From: a bacterium
GTDB taxonomy: Bacteria; Chloroflexota; Dormibacteria; UBA8260; Bog-877
Length of the DNA: 13,333 bases
Assembly (NCBI GenBank): GCA_021802115.1
Contig: JAKABA010000100.1
Location: forward strand, 1 to 13,333
Direction: 5' to 3'
How positions within the stretch are numbered: the stretch's first letter is position 1; every line of letters starts with the position of its first letter. Positions 3,312-13,333 of the stretch are shown piece after piece. The notes beneath the pieces were generated by a model. It was not told the DNA's origin, did no database searches, and saw only the letters and a program-made list of their open reading frames with translations. The translations under genes and the position numbers were made by a program.

Positions 3312-3704
3312 ATGGCCCAGTATCTCATCTACTTCAACGACGAGTGGGTGACCGAGGCGAGCGACGAGGAGTGGCAGGAGCGATCCCGGCGGGTGGGCGC
3401 CCTACGCGAGGAGATGAAAGCGGCCGGGGTTTATATCTTCGGAGGCGGCCTCGACAACGACGCGGCGGTCTTCCACGTGGAGCCGCGCGGTGGCGCGCCT
3501 GTCTTCACCGATGGGCCATATGCGGAGACTAAGGAGACCTTCGGTGGCTTTGCCGCCGTGGAGGTGGCCGACGAGAGCGCCGCACGGTACTGGGCGGGGA
3601 AGATCGCGGTGGCCTGCGACTGGCCGCAGGAGGTGCGAATCTTCCGAGATCGTGTTCCGACGCCGGATGCCGACCGCCGCGGCGACGCTACCCAAACGGG
3701 CTGA
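3312..3704 (+). CDS. YCII-related / DGPF-domain protein
   Basis: This 130-aa cytoplasmic protein belongs to the DGPF subgroup of the YCII-related fold, a small ferredoxin-like alpha+beta domain. It starts MAQYLIYFND, has helical residues 19-39, and carries the family motif as D67-G68-P69-Y70 followed by AETKETFGGF (71-80). A helix (87-102) and the closing strand EVRIF (107-111) follow. The last 18 residues are unstructured. ATG 3312 has a good ribosome binding site, GAGGAG at 3301-3306. DGPF proteins typically sit beside ECF42-type sigma factor genes, as here (sigma start 235 bp downstream). The biochemical role is unknown; the family has been suggested to be enzymatic or to act in the signalling that controls the sigma factor. 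The family assignment is strong, the function is not. Confidence 0.9.
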   Translation: MAQYLIYFNDEWVTEASDEEWQERSRRVGALREEMKAAGVYIFGGGLDNDAAVFHVEPRGGAPVFTDGPYAETKETFGGFAAVEVADESAARYWAGKIAVACDWPQEVRIFRDRVPTPDADRRGDATQTG

Positions 3705-3938
3705 GATGTCCCAGCGCCCGATGTCGGTGCCCGGCGCCCATGACAATCGGCGTCGACGGTGCGTGTCTAGCCCCTTCTATCCCAATGGGGCTCACCTGGA
3801 CGCGAAGGAGTCCGTGGGTGCAATATCGGCGGATCCGGCGCCGAACCCTGACTGCGCACTGCAACTGGCCGTCCTGACCTGGGCGCCGTGCTGCCCAGGG
3901 ATTGCGGACCGTCCGTTCCTGGGGCTGGTCCAGTCGCG

Positions 3939-5360
3939 GTGATCGAGGAAATCTATCGCGCCGAGTGGCCCCGAGTGGTGGCCGCTTTGTCCCGACGCTT
4001 CGGGGACCTCGACCTCGCCGAGGACGCAGCGAGCGAGGCCTTCCTTGCCGCTGTCGCGACATGGGGCGCGGGTGGCACCACACCTCCGGCCAACCCGGGC
4101 GGTTGGCTGATGACGACTGCCACGCGGAAGGCGATAGATCGCCTCCGCCGCGAGTCCCAACGGCGGGTCAAGCACGCGCAGGCGGCGCTACTGCAACCGA
4201 AGCCCGGGCCCCCGCACGCCGTCGAGGACGACCAACTCCATCTGATCTTCACCTGCGCCCATCCGGCACTGGCATCGGAGGCTCGACTGGCACTCACGCT
4301 GCGCTTGGTCGCTGGACTCACGGTGGCAGAGATCGCTCGCGCTTTGATGTCCAGCGAGGCGGCGATCGGGCAACGAATCACCAGAGCCAAGGCCAAAATC
4401 CGGGATGGACATATTCCGTTCGTGGTTCCCGAGCGGCCCGCCGAACGCGTGCCCGACGTTCTTGCAGTCATCTACCTCATCTTCAACGAGGGTTATCTCC
4501 CCGGCAGTGACACCGACGTGCGCGTCGATCTGTCCGACGAGGCGATTCGACTGGCCCGGCTGCTGGCCAAGCTGCTGCCGGACGAACTGGAGGTGGTGGG
4601 GCTGCTGGCCCTGCTGCTCCTGATCGACGCGCGCCGCCCGGCTCGCATCGACGCCTCGGGGGAGTTGGTGACACTCGACCAACAGGACCGATCTCGGTGG
4701 GACTGGACGCTCATCGGTGAGGGACACGCCCTGGTACGAGCCTGCATCCGTGCCAACCGCCCTGGGCCGTACCAGATCCAAGCGGCCATCAACGCTGTCC
4801 ACACCGCCACCCCCGCGTTCCCGGAAACCGACTGGCACACGCTCGCGAAGCTCTACGACCAGCTGTACGCACTCACTCCCACCCCGATCGTGGCGCTCAA
4901 CCGGGCCGTGGTCACCGCCGAGCTGGCCGGGCCAGAGACGGCGCTGGCCGCGATCGACCGGCTGCCGCTGGACACTTACCACGCTTTCCACGCGGCCCGC
5001 GCCGAACTGCTCCGCCGGATCGGGCGCCGGGCCGAGGCGGAGGCGGCATACGCCCGGGCAATCGACCTGGCAGGCAATGCCGCTGAGCTCCGCTATCTGG
5101 AGCGCCGCCGTGCTGAACTCGTGGCCAGCAGGCCAAGCTCTTCGGCAGTCGGCGCCTCAAGACGCATCCAGGTGCGGCCATGGACGGGTCCCCAGCCGCG
5201 TTGCGTCGGGCACCGTGAGGGTCCGCCACTCGGTCGCTGCCGGGACCTGGCTAAGGGCGCGGGAAACCCTGTCTCTGATGTTCCACTTGGGGCCGGACGG
5301 GGCAGTCAGCCAGATGATCGTTCACCAGCCCCAGGGACTGCATCAAGGAGTAGGCACTGA
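3939..5360 (+). CDS. ECF42-like RNA polymerase sigma factor with TPR-like C-terminal domain
   Basis: This is an alternative sigma factor of the group with a large helical C-terminal extension, once annotated as RpoE-like or DUF6596. From GTG 3939, sigma region 2 covers roughly residues 3-70 (EEIYRAEWPRVVAALSRRF, then DLAEDAASEAF). The conserved DDQLHLIFTCAHPAL joins to region 4 (about 110-155: GLTVAEIARAL, then QRITRAKAKIR). The extension shows the family blocks AVIYLIFNEGY, DQQDRSRWDW, GPYQIQAAINAVH and TPIVALNRAVV, and ends in TPR-like helices at about residue 395. An upstream GTG at 3888 is in frame; 3939 was chosen because family similarity starts with EEIYR, although neither has a clear ribosome binding site. 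There is no anti-sigma gene; the C-terminal domain is thought to regulate this group. About 78 residues after the canonical end are low-complexity, and the last 110 bp overlap tag antisense. Confidence 0.9.
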   Translation: MIEEIYRAEWPRVVAALSRRFGDLDLAEDAASEAFLAAVATWGAGGTTPPANPGGWLMTTATRKAIDRLRRESQRRVKHAQAALLQPKPGPPHAVEDDQLHLIFTCAHPALASEARLALTLRLVAGLTVAEIARALMSSEAAIGQRITRAKAKIRDGHIPFVVPERPAERVPDVLAVIYLIFNEGYLPGSDTDVRVDLSDEAIRLARLLAKLLPDELEVVGLLALLLLIDARRPARIDASGELVTLDQQDRSRWDWTLIGEGHALVRACIRANRPGPYQIQAAINAVHTATPAFPETDWHTLAKLYDQLYALTPTPIVALNRAVVTAELAGPETALAAIDRLPLDTYHAFHAARAELLRRIGRRAEAEAAYARAIDLAGNAAELRYLERRRAELVASRPSSSAVGASRRIQVRPWTGPQPRCVGHREGPPLGRCRDLAKGAGNPVSDVPLGAGRGSQPDDRSPAPGTASRSRH

Positions 5361-6071: not shown

Positions 6072-6506
6072 ATGGTAGTGATCTGGGCGACGTTGGTCGT
6101 CGCTCTGGTGGTGCACGAGGGGTCCCACTACCTCCTGCTCCGGTGGGCCGGGCTGCACCCCCGCCCCTCCTTCCACTTCCCCGGCCTCGGATGGCGATTC
6201 AACACGGGTCACGCCAGCGCCCATCAGCTGATGGACATCTGGCTGGTGGGGCCGATCATGGAGAGCCTGGTCTGGGCCACGGCGGCCCTGCTTTTTTCGG
6301 CATGGGCGTGGGAGCTGCTGCTCGTGATGGGGATCGAGCTGGGCACCAATCTGGCGCTGCCGGGGAGTGACGGACGCCGGGTGCTCAGACTCTGGCGCAG
6401 CACCAGCGCCAGGGGTGCGGGTGGCGCCTCTTCGAGATGCGGCGGGGGGGTGCCCGATTCGACCAGTGGCTTGCACGCCGGCCCCACCGTCGGCTCTCGG
6501 CGCTGA
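6072..6506 (+). CDS. Small M50 (site-2-protease-like) membrane metalloprotease
   Basis: This 144-aa protein has the minimal signature of the M50 intramembrane metalloprotease family. A hydrophobic segment (3-14) leads straight into HEGSH (15-19), the HExxH zinc motif with catalytic Glu E16. A second hydrophobic stretch (57-77) contains G60-P61, like the GP motif of the family's central membrane segment, but the usual nearby Asn is replaced (GPIMES). A third (78-92) precedes N93-LAL-P97-GS-D100-G101, matching the N-x-x-x-P-x-x-D-G motif whose Asp is the third zinc ligand. The core is therefore complete in about 110 residues, much shorter than RseP or SpoIVFB, and there is no PDZ or CBS domain. 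Residues 109-144 are Ser/Gly-rich without structure. ATG 6072 has GGAG at 6058-6061. The gene stands alone between its own promoter and terminator. The substrate is unknown, and it could be an inactive relative. Confidence 0.65.
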   Translation: MVVIWATLVVALVVHEGSHYLLLRWAGLHPRPSFHFPGLGWRFNTGHASAHQLMDIWLVGPIMESLVWATAALLFSAWAWELLLVMGIELGTNLALPGSDGRRVLRLWRSTSARGAGGASSRCGGGVPDSTSGLHAGPTVGSRR

Positions 6507-6822: not shown

Positions 6823-6851
6823 TTGCCAGATCAAGTTCTCAGCCCTATGGT
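6823..6851 (+). promoter_or_regulatory. Sigma-70-type promoter of the amidoligase operon
   Basis: TTGCCA (6823-6828) and TATGGT (6846-6851) are 17 nt apart, matching the -35 consensus at 5 of 6 and the -10 at 4 of 6 positions. Transcription would begin near 6857, about 60 nt before ATG 6918. This makes the much earlier in-frame start at 6786 unlikely. Confidence 0.55.
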
Positions 6852-6906
6852 GAGCGCAGCGTGGTGTGGCCCGGGATTGGGCGCGCTCGGCTGCGGGAGC
6901 GGCTTT

Positions 6907-6911
6907 GGGAG
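6907..6911 (+). promoter_or_regulatory. Ribosome binding site deciding the ATP-grasp start
   Basis: GGGAG lies 6 nt before ATG 6918, and the protein from that ATG starts MGAKVGLLVG, a typical first beta strand of an ATP-grasp fold. The 44 codons of open frame upstream to 6786 are arginine-rich and unlike the family, so they were left out. Confidence 0.6.
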
Positions 6912-6917
6912 TGGCGA

Positions 6918-7856
6918 ATGGGCGCGAAGGTGGGGCTTCTGGTGGGGGTGGAGGACACCTTTCCGAAGCCGTTCTTGGATCTGGTCAACCAGCGGGGGAG
7001 CAGATGGGGTGTGACCGCGGAACTCGCTCGACTGGGAGGAATCCCGGAGATCCAGGACCCGCTTCGCTACCAGGTGATCGTCGACCGGATCTCCCATGAG
7101 GTCCCCTTCTATCGCGCCTACCTGAAGAGCGCCTGCCTCCAGGGCACGGTCGTGATCAACGATCCCTTCTGGTGGGAGGCTGACGAGAAGTTCTTCGAGT
7201 GCTCGTTGGCCCGCCGCCTGGGCGTGGCGGTGCCGCGCACGGTGGTGCTGCCCAACAAGGAGTACATCTCCTACATCGACCCCTCGCGGTCTCTGCGCAA
7301 CTTGGAGTATCCCCTGGACTGGGACGGTATCGTCCGCTACACCGGACTCCCGGCGGTGCTCAAGCCCAACACCGGGGGTGGCTGGCGGGATGTGTACATG
7401 GTCGACTGCCTGGACGACCTGATCCGCGCCTACGATCAGACCGGGACCAAGACCATGATCCTGCAGGAGCGGATCCAGTGGGACGACTACTTGCGCTGCG
7501 TGGTGATCGGCGCTGACGTGATGGTCTTCCGCTACGACCCCACCAGGCCCTTCATGGAGCGCTACGTCATCGACCGCCCACCGCCGCCGGAGCTGCGGGA
7601 CCGCGCCGCCGAGCAGGCGCTGACGCTCACCAAGGCTCTGGGCTACGACATGGACACAGTCGAGTTCGCGGTCCGCGACGGCATCCTCTACGCCATCGAC
7701 TTCCTCAACCCCGCCCCCGACTTCGACAGCTTCTCCATCAAGGATGAGGGGTTCAACTGGGTGCTGGACCGGATGTGCGCTCTCGTCTTGAGCTATGCGA
7801 AAGGGGAGCTGTCCCCGCCCTGGCGGGGTGCTCATCGCTGGTGGCGATTCGTGTGA
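6918..7856 (+). CDS. ATP-grasp carboxylate-amine/thiol ligase
   Basis: This 312-aa protein is predicted to activate a carboxylate as an acyl phosphate with ATP and join it to an amine. The order is that of a classical ATP-grasp protein. An N-terminal preATP-grasp segment (1-100) starts MGAKVGLLVGVED and contains INDPFWWEADEK (80-91), resembling the NDP...K element of RimK-type enzymes. The nucleotide-binding lysine is in PAVLKPNTGGGWRDVYMV (145-162, K149). ILQERI (181-186) is the adenine-contacting hinge. TVEFAV (247-252) and IDFLNPAPD (260-268) supply the magnesium-binding E249, D261 and N264. No carrier-protein or membrane segment is seen. It is the first gene of a three-gene operon; its stop overlaps the next start in GTGA. 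The substrate cannot be read from sequence. RimK/glutathione-synthetase-like is the nearest family I can name. Confidence 0.88.
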   Translation: MGAKVGLLVGVEDTFPKPFLDLVNQRGSRWGVTAELARLGGIPEIQDPLRYQVIVDRISHEVPFYRAYLKSACLQGTVVINDPFWWEADEKFFECSLARRLGVAVPRTVVLPNKEYISYIDPSRSLRNLEYPLDWDGIVRYTGLPAVLKPNTGGGWRDVYMVDCLDDLIRAYDQTGTKTMILQERIQWDDYLRCVVIGADVMVFRYDPTRPFMERYVIDRPPPPELRDRAAEQALTLTKALGYDMDTVEFAVRDGILYAIDFLNPAPDFDSFSIKDEGFNWVLDRMCALVLSYAKGELSPPWRGAHRWWRFV

Positions 7857-9208
7857 ACCCGGCCAGAAGGGCCCGCCGCGACTTCGACGAGCTCATGGCT
7901 GATCCCGACACCCGCGCCAGCAGCGTGGAGGTGCTGCACCAGGGTCAGCGTGAGCGGGGGCTCTACTTTGGCAGTCACCCGCTGTGCGTAGCGCTTCGGC
8001 CGGAGTTCCTGACCCGGAAGGAGTACCAACAGGCCAGCCGGGCGGCACAGATCGTGTGGGCGGCCCTGAGCCGGCTCGAGGCCGCGCTGCTGCAGGACCC
8101 GAAACTGCGCCAGGAGCTGGACCTGGATCCGATGGAGGAGCGCCTGGCCCTGGCTGACCCTGGATACCGGCCTTCGTCGCCGGGCTCGCGACTTGACAGC
8201 TTCTGGGCGTCTGAGGTCGGGTACGTGGAGTACAACGCCGAATCGCCGGCCGGGATCGCCTACGGCGAAGAGCTGAGCCGCATCTTCTGGGAGATGCCGG
8301 CCGTCCAAGAGCTGCGGATGAAGTACCAGCTTCAGCCGGTGGCATGTCGCGACCGTCAACTTGAGGTGATGCTGCGAGCGTTTCGCGACTTCGCCAGCGC
8401 CGGGGGGGCTCCCACGGTCGCCATCGTCGACTGGCCCAACCTGCCCACCTTGCGGGAGTTCGAGCTGTTCCGGGACGCCTTCGAACGTCGCGGGGTCAGG
8501 ACTTTGATCTGCGAGCCGGCGGAGCTGGAGTACTCCAAAGGAGTGCTCCGAGGGCCGTCGGGAATCGCCATCAACCTCGTCTATCGGCGGGTGCTGGAGA
8601 GCGAGCTGCTGGCCACGGACGGCGCCTGGGAGGCCCTGTGCTCAGCCTATCTGGACGGCGCGGTGTGTGTCGTGAACTCTTTTCGGGCCAAGCTGCTGCA
8701 CAAGAAGATGAGCCTGGCCCTGCTGTCGGACGAGGGCTATGCCCACCTCTACACCCGAGCACAGCTGGAGGCGATCCGGCGTTACGTGCCCTGGACCCGC
8801 AAGGTGCGTTCGGGTCCGAGCACCAGGGCCGGCCGGGCCATCCCCGATCTGGTGGACTACGTGGTCCAGAATCGCAAGACCATGGTCCTCAAGCCCAACG
8901 ACGAGTACGGCGGCAAAGGGGTGGTGCTGGGCTGGTTGGTGAGCCAGCGGGAGTGGGAGCAGACGCTGGCGGTGGCGCTGACGCAGTCCTACGTGGTCCA
9001 GGCCGCCGTGGAGGTACCCCGCGATCTGTACCCGGTGGCGGTGGGTGACGAGGTGGAGATGCTCAGCCTCGCCAGGGACATGGACCCGTACCTCTTCAAT
9101 GGCCGGGTGGGCGGGCTCTTGATCCGGCTCTCCTCCTCCGCGCTCTTGAATCTCACAGCCGGTTCGGGCAGCGTGGTTCCGGCATTTTTGGTGGAGATGA
9201 AGCAGTGA
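7853..9208 (+). CDS. Circularly permuted ATP-grasp enzyme
   Basis: This predicted ATP-dependent amide-bond-forming enzyme is 451 aa from GTG 7853. The motif order is permuted relative to the preceding gene. The metal-binding block VEYNAESPAGIAYGEE (125-140, with E126, N128 and E130) comes first. A central Rossmann-like segment follows (APTVAIVDWPNLPT, 186-199). Then come VVNSFRAKLLHKKMSLALLSD (273-293), typical of this class, the ATP-binding lysine in MVLKPNDEYGGKGVVLGW (344-361, K347), and a C-terminal hinge YVVQAAVEVP (380-389). This resembles the CP-ATP-grasp families (COG2308 or glutathionylspermidine-synthase-like). GTG 7853 overlaps the upstream stop as GTGA; an in-frame GTG at 7841 is an alternative. 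The 3' end overlaps the next start by the same 4 bp, implying translational coupling of all three ligases. Substrate unknown. Confidence 0.85.
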   Translation: MNPARRARRDFDELMADPDTRASSVEVLHQGQRERGLYFGSHPLCVALRPEFLTRKEYQQASRAAQIVWAALSRLEAALLQDPKLRQELDLDPMEERLALADPGYRPSSPGSRLDSFWASEVGYVEYNAESPAGIAYGEELSRIFWEMPAVQELRMKYQLQPVACRDRQLEVMLRAFRDFASAGGAPTVAIVDWPNLPTLREFELFRDAFERRGVRTLICEPAELEYSKGVLRGPSGIAINLVYRRVLESELLATDGAWEALCSAYLDGAVCVVNSFRAKLLHKKMSLALLSDEGYAHLYTRAQLEAIRRYVPWTRKVRSGPSTRAGRAIPDLVDYVVQNRKTMVLKPNDEYGGKGVVLGWLVSQREWEQTLAVALTQSYVVQAAVEVPRDLYPVAVGDEVEMLSLARDMDPYLFNGRVGGLLIRLSSSALLNLTAGSGSVVPAFLVEMKQ

Positions 9209-10353
9209 GAGAAGGCTGGCTCACCCTCGGTGTGGAAGAGGAGTTCCAGATCATTGATCGGCAGGGGCAGTTGCGTTCCCATATCGAGACCCTCTTGTCG
9301 CAGGCAACCCCACTGCTCGGAGAGGATGTCAAGGCGGAGATGCTCCAGTCGGTGGTAGAGGTCGCGACCCCGATCTGTGCGGACGTGGGGGCCGTCCGGA
9401 CCGAGGTCACCCGCCTGCGCCGCGCGGTGGCCGACCTGCTCCGCCCCTTCGATCTGCGCATAGCGTCGGCGGGCACCCATCCGTTCGCGAACTGGCAGGA
9501 GCAGCAGGTGACCGACCTCGAGCGCTACAAGATGCTCGAGGAGGAGATGCAGGATGTGATCCGGGAGCTGCTGATCTTCGGGATGCATGTGCACGTGGCC
9601 ATCCCCGACCCTGAGCTCCGCATCGAGGTGGCCAACGAGGCGCGGTACTTCTTACCTCACCTGCTGGCTCTGTCCACCTCCAGCCCCTTCTGGATGGGCC
9701 GGCAGACCGGCCTCAAGAGCTACCGCAGCGTGGTGTGGTCGCGCTTTCCCAGGACGGGGATACCCCCGGAGTTCAGCTGTCACGACGACTTCGAGAACTA
9801 CACGCAGCTGCTGGTCCAAACCGGCAGCATCGACGACGGCAAAAAGGTTTGGTGGGACCTGCGACCCCACTGCGTGTACCCGACCCTGGAATTCAGGGTC
9901 TGCGACGCGGTGACCAAGGTGGATGAGGTCGTCTGTCTGGTATCCATCATCCAGGCGATCTGCGCCAAGCTGCTCAAGCTACGACAGTCGAATCTGGGGT
10001 TTCGCAAGTACCTGCCCAACCTCATCGCGGAGAACAAGTGGCGGGCTCTCCGACACGGGCTGGACGGGCGGCTCATCGACTTCGGCAAGGTGCAGGAGGT
10101 GCCCATGCGGCAGCTGGCGCTGGAGCTGCTGGACTTCGTCGACGACGTCCTCGACGAGTTGGGCTCCCGCGCCGAGGTCGAGTACCTTCACCAGATCCTC
10201 GCCGAAGGCAGCAGCGCGGACCGGCAGCTGCGCTGCTTCGAGCGCACCGGTTCGCTGCCGGCGGTGGTGGAGCAGCTGGCCAACGAGACCATGCTTGGGG
10301 TTGGTCCGGAGGTGCCGCGAGAACCCACCTTGGAGGGCCTCCTCTTCGACTGA
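9205..10353 (+). CDS. Carboxylate-amine ligase, YbdK/GCS2 family
   Basis: This is a member of the glutamate-cysteine ligase type 2 family, which has a glutamine-synthetase-like fold and joins a carboxylate to an amine with ATP. It is 382 aa, close to YbdK (about 370). The metal-binding signature is L8-GVEEEFQIID (8-17), then VVEVATP (50-56), SAGTHPFANWQEQ (88-100) and FGMHVHVAIPD (125-135). LSTSSPFWMGRQTGLKSYR (156-174), RFPRTGIPPEF (180-190) and WWDLRPH-YPTLEFRVCD (216-234, one residue group skipped) complete the family blocks. GTG 9205 overlaps the previous stop and has GGAG at 9193-9196. Many YbdK-like proteins are annotated as weak glutamate-cysteine ligases, but the true substrate is usually unknown. 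The operon context argues for a dedicated third amide bond rather than glutathione synthesis, since gshB is not recognisable. Confidence 0.92.
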   Translation: MREGWLTLGVEEEFQIIDRQGQLRSHIETLLSQATPLLGEDVKAEMLQSVVEVATPICADVGAVRTEVTRLRRAVADLLRPFDLRIASAGTHPFANWQEQQVTDLERYKMLEEEMQDVIRELLIFGMHVHVAIPDPELRIEVANEARYFLPHLLALSTSSPFWMGRQTGLKSYRSVVWSRFPRTGIPPEFSCHDDFENYTQLLVQTGSIDDGKKVWWDLRPHCVYPTLEFRVCDAVTKVDEVVCLVSIIQAICAKLLKLRQSNLGFRKYLPNLIAENKWRALRHGLDGRLIDFGKVQEVPMRQLALELLDFVDDVLDELGSRAEVEYLHQILAEGSSADRQLRCFERTGSLPAVVEQLANETMLGVGPEVPREPTLEGLLFD

Positions 10354-10355
10354 AC

Positions 10356-11096
10356 TCAGCAGAACCGGGGCAGGTGGTGGGCGAGCTGCTGGCGCCAGGA
10401 GGGCCAGTCATGAGGCACGTCGTACCCCCAGACGTCGAGTTCGTGGGATATCCCCTTCTCAGCCAGCAGCCGCGCGAAGGCGCGGGTGGACTGCAGCGCT
10501 CCGGTCGTGTCCTCCCACATTCCCTGACCGCACACCAGGGTGAGGTGGGCTCGCCGCCGGAGCCACTCCAGATGGTCGCCATGGGCGTGCGCGAGATAGT
10601 CCATGGGGTTGTTGAAGTAGCTCTCACTGCCGCGCTCCCACCCGCCGCCCACCACCGACACGTCATAGACGCCCGAGAGGCACAGCGCCCTCGGGAAGAG
10701 GTCCGCCCGCTTGAGGCAGAAGTTGGCGGCGTGGTAGGCGCCGAAGCTGCAGCCGATGACGCCGATGTCGAGTCGTCCCAGGCAGTCCTGGTGGATCCGC
10801 GGCACCAGGTGGTTCACCACCCAGTCCTCGAAGCGAGCATGGTTTCGTGCCCTCTCCTCCAGGGAGAGACTGGCATTGCGCCACGAGTGGCGGTCGAAGC
10901 TGTCGACGCAGTAGAGCTTGACCCGGCCCTGCTCCAGAAGTTGTCCGACAGCGTCGATCATCCCCCGCTGCTCGAAGTCGTGAGCGCTGCCCATGTCGGT
11001 GGGGAACACGATCAGGGGTGGCCCGTAGTGGCCGTACGCCAGCACCGTGGCCGCGCCGGCGCCCTCCGACTCCACCACCCACTGATCCCGGCGCAT
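10356..11096 (-). CDS. Alpha/beta hydrolase, putative esterase family
   Basis: This 246-aa cytoplasmic serine hydrolase is of the putative-esterase (esterase D/antigen 85-like) type. LIVFPTDMGSAHDFEQRG (28-45) forms the first strand and oxyanion region. The nucleophile elbow is G115-C-S117-F-G-A, followed by LCLSGVYDVS (138-147), typical of this family. HLTLVCGQG-WED (184-196) is the likely acid-bearing loop, and H229 in VPHDWPSWRQQL is the probable catalytic histidine. No signal peptide is visible. ATG 11096 lies 10 bp after the stop of the upstream hydrolase gene, so the two are probably co-transcribed. Its stop is 2 bp from the stop of the convergent GCS2 gene. Context suggests hydrolysis, transfer or release of the amidoligase product; the substrate is not known. 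Confidence 0.85.
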   Translation of the reverse strand: MRRDQWVVESEGAGAATVLAYGHYGPPLIVFPTDMGSAHDFEQRGMIDAVGQLLEQGRVKLYCVDSFDRHSWRNASLSLEERARNHARFEDWVVNHLVPRIHQDCLGRLDIGVIGCSFGAYHAANFCLKRADLFPRALCLSGVYDVSVVGGGWERGSESYFNNPMDYLAHAHGDHLEWLRRRAHLTLVCGQGMWEDTTGALQSTRAFARLLAEKGISHELDVWGYDVPHDWPSWRQQLAHHLPRFC

Positions 11097-11106
11097 CAGT
11101 GGATTC

Positions 11107-12267
11107 TCACAAGCTGGACCAGAGGCAGGCCAGCAGCTGGCTCAGCCATGGACGGAAGGCATCGCGCCACGCGATCCAGTTGTGGGCGTCGCGGAGGCGC
11201 TGGAGCTCGCATCGGTATCCCAGGCGGCTCAGGCTGCTGGCCATAGCGGTGTTGGCCAGCAAGGTCTCCTCGACGGTACCACAGGTCAGCACCACCGAGG
11301 CTCGTGCCGGCGCGTGGCAGGCGGAGTGGATGGACTCTGTGAAGGCGCAGATCCGCTCCATGTGCTCGAAGCTCAGACTCTGGGAGAAGTAGTGGTGATT
11401 GAAGAAGCTGGCCGACTGCAGGAACAGCCCTCCCAGGAGCTCCGGCTGGCTCCAATGCGCATGCAGCATGGCAAGCCCACCCAGACTGGCACCCATCCCC
11501 ACCCGGGCCCTTGGCTCGGGGCGGATCGAGACCCGGCCTGCGAGCTGCGGGAGCACCTCCTGTTGCAGGGAGCAGGCGAAATCCGGGGACGCGGAGTAGT
11601 CGCGGTCGCGTTGCACGGGATGCAGCAACGCGGCGCGCATCGGCGGCAGCTCACCGGCACGCGCGGCCTGGTCCAGAAACTGGGTGAGCGACGAGTAGAG
11701 GTCGTACTCGAGTCCGTCCAGCGCGATGAGGAGGGGCAGCGACTGCTCGCTGCGGGTTCCCGGAGATGACCAAAGGCGGCAATGGGTCGCCCCCTCAAGG
11801 GTCGGGCAGGGGATGTCGAAGTCCCGAACCTCGCCCCGTGGCAATGCGGATGAGGCCGTCCATCGAGGGGCTCGATACTCCGGAAACTCGATCACGGACT
11901 TGTCGCCAAATGGCCCCGGAGCTCGCCGCGGATTGCCCGGATCCGTCCCGAGGGTCACCTGCCCGTTGCGGTATCGCAATCTGAACAGGTACTCCATGCG
12001 ATCGACCGGCGGTCTGGGGATCGCCACCTCATAGACCCCGCCCCTCATCGTCATTCGCGGGCCGTCTCTGGGCTGGAGGACTTCCTGGTAGAGGCTGACC
12101 GCGACCACCTCGGAACCGGGGTCAGGCAAGCGGAAGGTGACCCCCTGGGTCTGCACCAGCGGGCCGAGTGACTTGAGCTCTAGCGCGAGGTTGTGATCAG
12201 TGATGCCGACGACTTCTAAGCCAGTCTCGGGGCAGCGGGCCACGCTCTCCTTGGCCGCCTGTTCCAT
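11107..12267 (-). CDS. Enterochelin-esterase-like hydrolase with N-terminal E-set/CBM48-like domain
   Basis: This 386-aa protein has the two-domain build of Fes-like esterases. Residues 43-133 form the beta-sandwich: VTFRLPDP, a central strand run, then the diagnostic end TDPGNPRRAPGPFGDKSV (108-125), IEFPEY and APRW. The alpha/beta hydrolase follows from about 145. LPLLIALDGLEYDLYSSL (177-194) is the oxyanion-side segment. The nucleophile is S261 in GMGASLGG (257-264), an acid is probably in LTCGTVEET (327-335), and H362 sits in DAHNWIAWRDAF. Fes cleaves ferric enterobactin, but this family has many other ester and peptide-ester substrates, and no siderophore or iron genes are present. ATG 12267 has no clear ribosome binding site. 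The same frame stays open upstream to a stop at 12394-12396 without a standard start, so the N-terminus is uncertain. Confidence 0.85.
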   Translation of the reverse strand: MEQAAKESVARCPETGLEVVGITDHNLALELKSLGPLVQTQGVTFRLPDPGSEVVAVSLYQEVLQPRDGPRMTMRGGVYEVAIPRPPVDRMEYLFRLRYRNGQVTLGTDPGNPRRAPGPFGDKSVIEFPEYRAPRWTASSALPRGEVRDFDIPCPTLEGATHCRLWSSPGTRSEQSLPLLIALDGLEYDLYSSLTQFLDQAARAGELPPMRAALLHPVQRDRDYSASPDFACSLQQEVLPQLAGRVSIRPEPRARVGMGASLGGLAMLHAHWSQPELLGGLFLQSASFFNHHYFSQSLSFEHMERICAFTESIHSACHAPARASVVLTCGTVEETLLANTAMASSLSRLGYRCELQRLRDAHNWIAWRDAFRPWLSQLLACLWSSL

Positions 12268-12619: not shown

Positions 12620-13333
12620 CTAAGTCTGCTCACGGGCGAGAAGCCCATTCGGTAACGCGAATATCATCCGGGCGTTGGGGAGGTCATAGCTGACGACGAA
12701 GTTCCTGAGGAAGGCATCGCCAACGAGCCCGTCATAGATGATCTTCTGGAACATCGCCTTGGGATCTCGCTGGCAGATCGAGGGTGCCCCGGTCACACTG
12801 ACCACGCCCTGCAGAGCGGTGAAGTAGCGAACGTACTCATGGCCCGTCTCATCCCGACCCTCGACTCTTTGGGTGCTTGCGTCGACGAGGTTGATCCCAA
12901 GATCATCCGCAAGCGCCTCATCCAGGATCAACGAGTCACTCCCCATGTCGACCTCGACCGAAATGGACCTCCGTCCCGGCAAATCAAGGGGGAGGAAGAC
13001 GGTCGTAGAGTGCGCGTCCTGCGCCACTCTGACGTCCACCGCGAGCCCGGAATCCGCGCGGGCGGCCACAGCGTCGGCATCATCGAGGACCAGTGCTCTC
13101 GATGGGTAGTCGACTGTCACCGGCCTTGACCGGAAGAAGTCAAGCGACAGAAAGCCCTCGACGCCCTCGAGACCAGCGATGTCGAAGATGCCCACGGCAA
13201 CGTCCTTGCGAGCGTAGCCTCCGAGGGCGAGCGAGCCCAGGGTGCCCAGTGGGATTGTCACCTCCTGCCCCGACATCCGGTGTCCGGTGTACGTGGCGCC
13301 GGTCGGCTCGCAGCCCGCTGCGGTGGCGAGCGA
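12620..13333 (-). CDS. Two-lobed retropepsin-like aspartyl protease homologue (5' end outside window)
   Basis: The frame is open to the right edge, so the N-terminus with the first Asp motif is missing; 237 residues are visible. They hold two copies of the retropepsin-like fold. Lobe 1 (visible from LATAAGCEPTG, residues 2-12) ends GVEGFLSLDFF and VTVDYPSRALVLDD (57-85). Lobe 2 starts ISVEVDMGSDSLILDEALADDLGI (124-147) and ends GLVGDAFLRNFVVSYDLPNARMIF (202-225). The lobe ends match each other, showing internal duplication. The active-site motif of lobe 2 is D129-M-G-S rather than D-T/S-G. Proteins of this type are often secreted or surface-attached, but a signal peptide cannot be checked here. 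The stop is TAG. Protease activity is uncertain, as the first lobe's catalytic Asp is beyond the edge. Confidence 0.75.
   Translation of the reverse strand, partial: SLATAAGCEPTGATYTGHRMSGQEVTIPLGTLGSLALGGYARKDVAVGIFDIAGLEGVEGFLSLDFFRSRPVTVDYPSRALVLDDADAVAARADSGLAVDVRVAQDAHSTTVFLPLDLPGRRSISVEVDMGSDSLILDEALADDLGINLVDASTQRVEGRDETGHEYVRYFTALQGVVSVTGAPSICQRDPKAMFQKIIYDGLVGDAFLRNFVVSYDLPNARMIFALPNGLLAREQT

Follow-up and report, generated by a model that had tools for sequence, protein, structure and literature searches.

A conserved set of three predicted amide ligases and a serine hydrolase in Dormibacteria and its variants in other phyla

Introduction

In glutathione biosynthesis the gamma-glutamyl bond is made first and the product is then extended. 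The pathways for glutathione and homoglutathione combine a first ligase of the GCS2 type with a second ligase of the eukaryote-type glutathione synthetase fold. A similar pair is encoded in a stretch of 13,333 nucleotides (hereafter the window) from a member of the Dormibacteria (Chloroflexota; GenBank assembly GCA_021802115.1, contig JAKABA010000100.1), where five genes, here termed A to E, code for three predicted amide ligases (A, B and C) and two serine hydrolases (D and E). An earlier note on this DNA had proposed that the five form one group acting on an amide- or peptide-like metabolite. In contrast to glutathione and homoglutathione biosynthesis, C and B reach no cut-off of a glutathione enzyme here and are regularly accompanied by a third ligase and by serine hydrolases.

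Other systems resemble single parts of the locus. To our knowledge, YgiC and YjfC of E. coli have no assigned function. The predicted fold of A is shared by RimK, LysX/ArgX and D-Ala-D-Ala ligase, but no LysW-like carrier or ribosomal target gene was recognised near A. GspSA is, according to its PDB title, bifunctional in one chain, whereas the hydrolases here are separate PF00756 enzymes. The fungal E-64 pathway, with the ATP-grasp enzyme Cp1B and an amide bond synthetase, differs by an oxygenase for the warhead and by another type of second ligase. Conserved neighbourhoods in which ATP-grasp and GCS2-like ligases are mixed with peptidases are reportedly contained in the 2009 amidoligase survey of Iyer and colleagues. 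In the accessible portions of the open-licence PubMed Central (PMC) literature, PMC4431377 and PMC12568646 included, no account of a D-A-B-C set was found. Mixed amidoligase neighbourhoods are a type said to have been described before, and the D-A-B-C combination appears to be new.

Results

The core of the locus is the four-gene set D-A-B-C. Homologues were numerous in the protein search (7973 for A among 7999 scored candidates, 6558 for B among 7997), and the scan of species genomes gave 62 loci encoding A, most of them titled Dormiibacterota/Dormibacteraeota or Chloroflexi. Five are titled only 'bacterium', and the remaining titles are one Actinomycetes, one Actinomycetota, two Saprospiraceae and one Ignavibacteria. 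Neighbours were counted in L001-L056 (56 of the 62 loci), leaving out L057-L059, from other phyla, and L060-L062, with partial matches to A; 31 of the 56 were dropped because of short flanks or the lack of a scored A, so that 25 remained. B, C and D adjoin A in 24 of these, 24 of the 25 share the same gene order, and D is the commonest partner of A. E occurs in four of the 25 loci, as an optional partner upstream of D. The earlier grouping is thus borne out in that the set travels together in other genomes, but its extent has to be corrected: given that E is present in only four loci, a single fixed unit of five genes is ruled out. The exact layout of the window, with A-B-C facing D and E, was found in L002, L006, L007, L008, L009 and L174.

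The sole exception among the 25 is L001 (10939-11615 and 13772-15546), the closest genome relative. It has kept A (84% identical) together with a 53-residue stub of B and a fragment of E, and has neither C nor D; open reading frames (ORFs) judged by eye to be transposase-like lie about 3-5 kb downstream. By its sequence, L001 appears to be a module in decay. The low-GC loci L057-L059 gave no genes with the codon-model caller; L057 and L058 were read from ORF lists, and L057 and L059 were read again. The commonest other neighbour family reaches 14 of the 58 loci with a called A, and such families are confined to subgroups of loci. An inorganic pyrophosphatase-like family (by eye) was seen in one subgroup about 0.7 kb upstream of A, ahead of D-A-B-C (L027, L030, L033, L039, L040, L043, L045, L046, L050, L051 and L054).

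The association is also seen at the level of whole genomes. Among 121 genomes from the phylum to which G004 belongs (G004 is titled Candidatus Dormiibacter and holds L041), whose match lists for A and C and for B and C were compared by reading, A has matches in 35 at E<=0.001 (31 at E<=1e-98), B in 38 (29 at E<=1e-120) and C in 48 (45 over the model cut-off). All 29 genomes with strong B have strong A, and these same 29 are the ones in which C scores at least 505 bits, although the C scores show no clear gap, the next one being 504.3 bits. The two genomes with strong A and without B, G022 and G034, are also without C. C is found apart from B in six of the 29 genomes: the two are about 4.7 Mb apart in contig coordinates in G127, and G047 has A, B and C each on a contig of its own.

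The note had named three different ligase folds, and this holds for C by family models and for A and B by structure prediction. C matches PF04107 at 212 bits, resembles the YbdK structure 1r8g (E 2.8e-47), and passes both the PRK13515 carboxylate-amine ligase model (NF010039; 505.2 bits, cut-off 371) and the broad YbdK model TIGR02050 (293 bits, cut-off 176.4). It stays under every listed cut-off for glutamate-cysteine ligases (NF010043, 344.5 against 409; NF010041, 280.7 against 332; TIGR02048, 72.3 against 249; EgtA, 19.2 against 370.8). The ATP-grasp labels of A and B stood as predicted folds, namely the RimK family fold for A and the eukaryote-type glutathione synthetase fold for B; they were not confirmed by Pfam. 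B scores 20.2 bits against the gathering score of 32 for CP_ATPgrasp_2 (PF14403), a family carried by many of the 120 B homologues among the matches listed, and misses the glutathione synthetase model PRK12458 (18.4 against 408 bits). The A of the window has no Pfam family, RimK and ATP-grasp models included, and no NCBIfam match at E<=0.001; PF08443 is carried by three of 120 A homologues among the matches listed. The assignments of A and B rest on the structure predictions. No ordinary glutathione or mycothiol enzyme, which in the note would have spoken against the proposal, is recognised among the ligases at family cut-offs. The eukaryote-type fold of B, on the other hand, means that the chemistry may be nearer to that of glutathione than was assumed there. 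D and E pass PF00756 (32.7 and 34.5 bits, cut-off 22), and E resembles 2b20 (E 1.9e-8).

The catalytic residues named earlier for all five proteins reach conservation values of 0.97-1.00 when near-full-length relatives are aligned (rows used: A, 118 of 120; B, 66 of 79; C, 73 of 75; D, 84 of 85; E, 18 of 18). These are K149, D261 and N264 in A (numbered from ATG 6918), where E249 is conserved as well, and E126 and K347 in B (numbered from GTG 7853), where N128, D350 and R425 are likewise conserved and all five residues reach 1.00 across the 66 rows. In the GVEEE motif of C the EEE was scored, the G lying outside the called start. The values for D and E are 0.98 and 1.00 for the serine (S117 and S261) and 0.98 and 1.00 for the histidine. 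Residues and predicted folds together support the view that three distinct ligase folds with active-looking sites are encoded in one operon.

All five reading frames are present and intact in the window (Table 1). Translational coupling of the three ligases, proposed before, is visible as GTGA overlaps at 7853-7856 (A/B) and 9205-9208 (B/C), where the GTG starts of B and C overlap the preceding stops. D and E are convergent to A-B-C, the genes C and D ending at 10353 and 10356. Position 6823 is not the start codon of A but a -35-like hexamer; this promoter match fits at 9 of 12 positions and is weak, as one was found against 0.4 expected in shuffles. A scan of the window with Rfam gave no match at the gathering threshold and hence no regulatory RNA. 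The ratio of nonsynonymous to synonymous change (pN/pS) against L002 and L006-L009, and for A also L001, was 0.17-0.35 for A, 0.41-0.59 for B, 0.29-0.40 for C, 0.37-0.48 for D and 0.45-0.56 for E, values that are partly saturated given synonymous divergences (dS) of 0.65-1.48. Together with the kept gene order, they show that the five genes are retained beyond chance.

Table 1. Position of the five genes and the promoter match in the window
Feature	Position	Strand	Description
Promoter match	6823..6851	+	Weak sigma-70-like match ahead of A; -35 hexamer at 6823
Gene A	6918..7856	+	312-aa ATP-grasp ligase of RimK/LysX/Ddl fold (predicted); ATG 6918
Gene B	7853..9208	+	451-aa circularly permuted ATP-grasp of glutathione synthetase/GspS fold (predicted); GTG 7853
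Gene C	9205..10353	+	382-aa YbdK-type GCS2 carboxylate-amine ligase; GTG start
Gene D	10356..11096	-	246-aa serine hydrolase, PF00756; S117 in GCSFG, H229 in HDWP
Gene E	11107..12267	-	386-aa serine hydrolase, enterochelin esterase relative, PF00756; S261, H362

Short ORFs (20-95 aa) were collected outside called genes only, in a span reaching 3 kb upstream and 7 kb downstream of A. Among the 225 found in 28 loci one cluster occurs in at least four loci, in four close relatives, and no cluster of these ORFs is suitable as the gene of a carrier protein or of a precursor of ribosomally synthesized and post-translationally modified peptides (RiPPs).

Thiol-related models were run on 26 module genomes, eight of the Bacteroidota phylum and 18 others (19 genomes for MshC). 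C is over its cut-off in 25 of the 26. GshB is over cut-off in one genome, of the Bacteroidota phylum, with weaker matches in seven more, and BshC was found in eight, that is, in all eight Bacteroidota-phylum genomes. Neither GshB over cut-off nor BshC was found in the 18 others, which are assemblies of unstated completeness for which the GshA and GshF models were not searched. EgtD, for ergothioneine, is over cut-off in two of the 26. No genome of 19 has MshC over the cut-off of 485 bits; 16 have matches of 333-416 bits and three of only about 255 bits, and the same search gives matches in all 14 control genomes, over cut-off in one. The proteins at 333-416 bits could be a divergent mycothiol-type ligase or a paralogue of cysteinyl-tRNA synthetase.

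Outside the Dormibacteria the set is varied around A. In the phylum of the Saprospiraceae genome G002 (Bacteroidota), A was found in 76 of 198 sampled genomes, in 72 at E<1e-50. In 20 loci of this phylum (L148-L167), the genes lying near A and on its strand are those of D (11), C (14) and B (3), a class-I glutamine amidotransferase-like protein (9; PF00117, one scanned) and c4, a family of about 395 aa (13; e.g. L160, 2469-3659). The three loci with B also carry c19, a PF00756 hydrolase (one scanned, L163). The one c4 protein scanned has no Pfam family at E<=0.1; its alignment with B by hhalign (49.6% probability, E 1.7e-4, 318 columns) is only suggestive, and c4 is perhaps a further circularly permuted ATP-grasp, a form of B.

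In the phylum of G001 (Actinomycetota), A was found in 23 of 246 genomes, two of them with strong matches, and most of the longer matches among the others belong to A', a longer relative of A (hhalign probability 100%). E, D and A' stand in a row in nine of 15 A' loci (L168-L173 and L175-L183), so that the E-D pair of the window resembles an Actinomycetota pair joined to the A-B-C operon; G171 holds both forms (L173 and L174). In five of the nine rows E adjoins c9, which is an ABC-2 membrane protein in L172. The absence of a transporter, stated earlier, thus holds for the window ORFs scanned and does not extend to the E-D-A' version. No member of the amidotransferase, c4, c16 or c19 families was found in the window.

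In some lineages A has a C-terminal tail that is Lys/Ala-rich or of the helix-hairpin-helix type (L057, 9977-11386; L108, 4785-5990; L106; L115). The tail of L108 matches HHH_5 (4e-7), and those of L057, L106 and L115 were judged by eye. Such tails suggest contact with nucleic acid or a large complex.

A tblastn search of 72,556 plasmid records with A (window and L160), A' (L172) and c4 (L160) found no match, and a plasmid-borne cluster was rejected on this basis. Plasmids do carry homologues of C and D. D stands beside a different ATP-grasp on Peptoclostridium and Pararhizobium plasmids and not in the Thiodictyon record viewed; this ATP-grasp belongs to family c16 (E 1e-66 and 2e-61), which also occurs near A or A' in L116, L164 and L170. 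In three records viewed, relatives of C have no annotated ATP-grasp within 7 kb.

Discussion

We favour, at roughly even chances, a modular ribosome-independent amide-ligase pathway that yields a small, probably gamma-glutamyl-type peptide or conjugate by a logic like that of glutathione. As to substrates, order of steps, product and hydrolase role, we infer the following course towards one small peptide or conjugate. Using ATP, C would activate a carboxylate, for which the gamma-carboxyl of glutamate is the likeliest candidate, and couple it to an amine or an amino acid. B, with its predicted glutathione synthetase fold, would then activate the carboxylate of this product and add a second amine or amino acid, and A might attach one more unit as RimK or LysX does. 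D, with E where present, would act on an ester, thioester or amide of the product by trimming, release or turnover. The set is small, with three ligases of conserved active sites and one or two hydrolases, and its reach is wide: 72 of 198 Bacteroidota-phylum genomes have strong A, and in another phylum 29 of 121 genomes combine A, B and high-scoring C. For a metabolite or modification so widely distributed, the lack of an assigned structure would be a real gap in bacterial chemistry. It is a bolder and rather unlikely extension that the module makes an undescribed class of low-molecular-weight metabolites, perhaps a thiol or redox conjugate, which replaces glutathione or stands alongside bacillithiol in many environmental bacteria, and that it differs between phyla through exchange of the second and third ligases around D-A.

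Several observations weigh against this pathway. C is a member of a carboxylate-amine ligase model and not of a glutamate-cysteine ligase model, and in 16 of the 121 genomes of the profile it exceeds its cut-off with neither strong A nor strong B present. D stands beside A in only four of 20 distant loci (L098-L117), we know of no activity for any member of the A, B and D families, and the MshC-like proteins in 16 of 19 genomes leave room for a mycothiol-type pathway. Furthermore, the tails of some A proteins fit a macromolecular target better than a small molecule. These tails and the fold of A would also suit a protein- or ribosome-modifying system, in which A, acting like RimK, attaches amino acids to a protein, the donor is made or extended by B and C, and D takes the modification off again. 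We consider this unlikely, though to be taken seriously: the folds of B and C are those of small-molecule ligases, the A of the window is without a tail, and no common target gene is kept nearby, the commonest other neighbour family being limited to 14 of 58 loci.

Plain glutathione biosynthesis by divergent enzymes, with C forming gamma-glutamylcysteine and B adding glycine, would agree with the GCS2 nature of C, with the fold of B and with the lack of GshB over cut-off and of BshC in all 18 non-Bacteroidota module genomes. It seems quite improbable, as C and B are under the cut-off of every glutathione-enzyme model listing them, A and D would be left without a task, and the eight Bacteroidota-phylum genomes with BshC, one of them with GshB over cut-off, still keep their version of the module. 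An ordinary glutathione operon was rejected because the family cut-offs are not reached. Very improbable, too, is the use of amines by temporary gamma-glutamylation in the style of putrescine breakdown, the ligases tagging an amine and the hydrolases untagging it. The amidotransferase-like protein of nine Bacteroidota-phylum loci would suit it, the PF00117-type fold being also used by gamma-glutamyl hydrolases, as would an aldehyde dehydrogenase-like family (by eye) in 10 of 58 loci; but this family belongs to one subgroup and is mostly found farther than 4 kb upstream of A, with a single locus having it closer, and three ligases exceed the need of a tag. That the genes have separate functions and stand together by shared ancestry only is the least probable of the explanations considered. 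Although most loci come from related soil lineages and flanking families are common within locus subgroups, no flanking family exceeds 14 of 58 loci, against B, C and D in 24 of the 25 loci whose flanks suffice, C is found in the same genomes even where it is not linked to the others, and the pairing recurs in other phyla with new partners.

Further genes lie on both sides of the module in the window. A small protein with an HEGSH motif is encoded at 6072-6506 and also occurs upstream of A in L001, L002 and L005. At 3312-5360 a YCII/DGPF-like small protein (by eye) is followed by an extracytoplasmic function (ECF) sigma factor with a DUF6596 tail, a pairing known from the ECF42 group. An aspartyl protease-like protein (PF13650) at 12620-13333 adjoins E and runs off the edge of the window.

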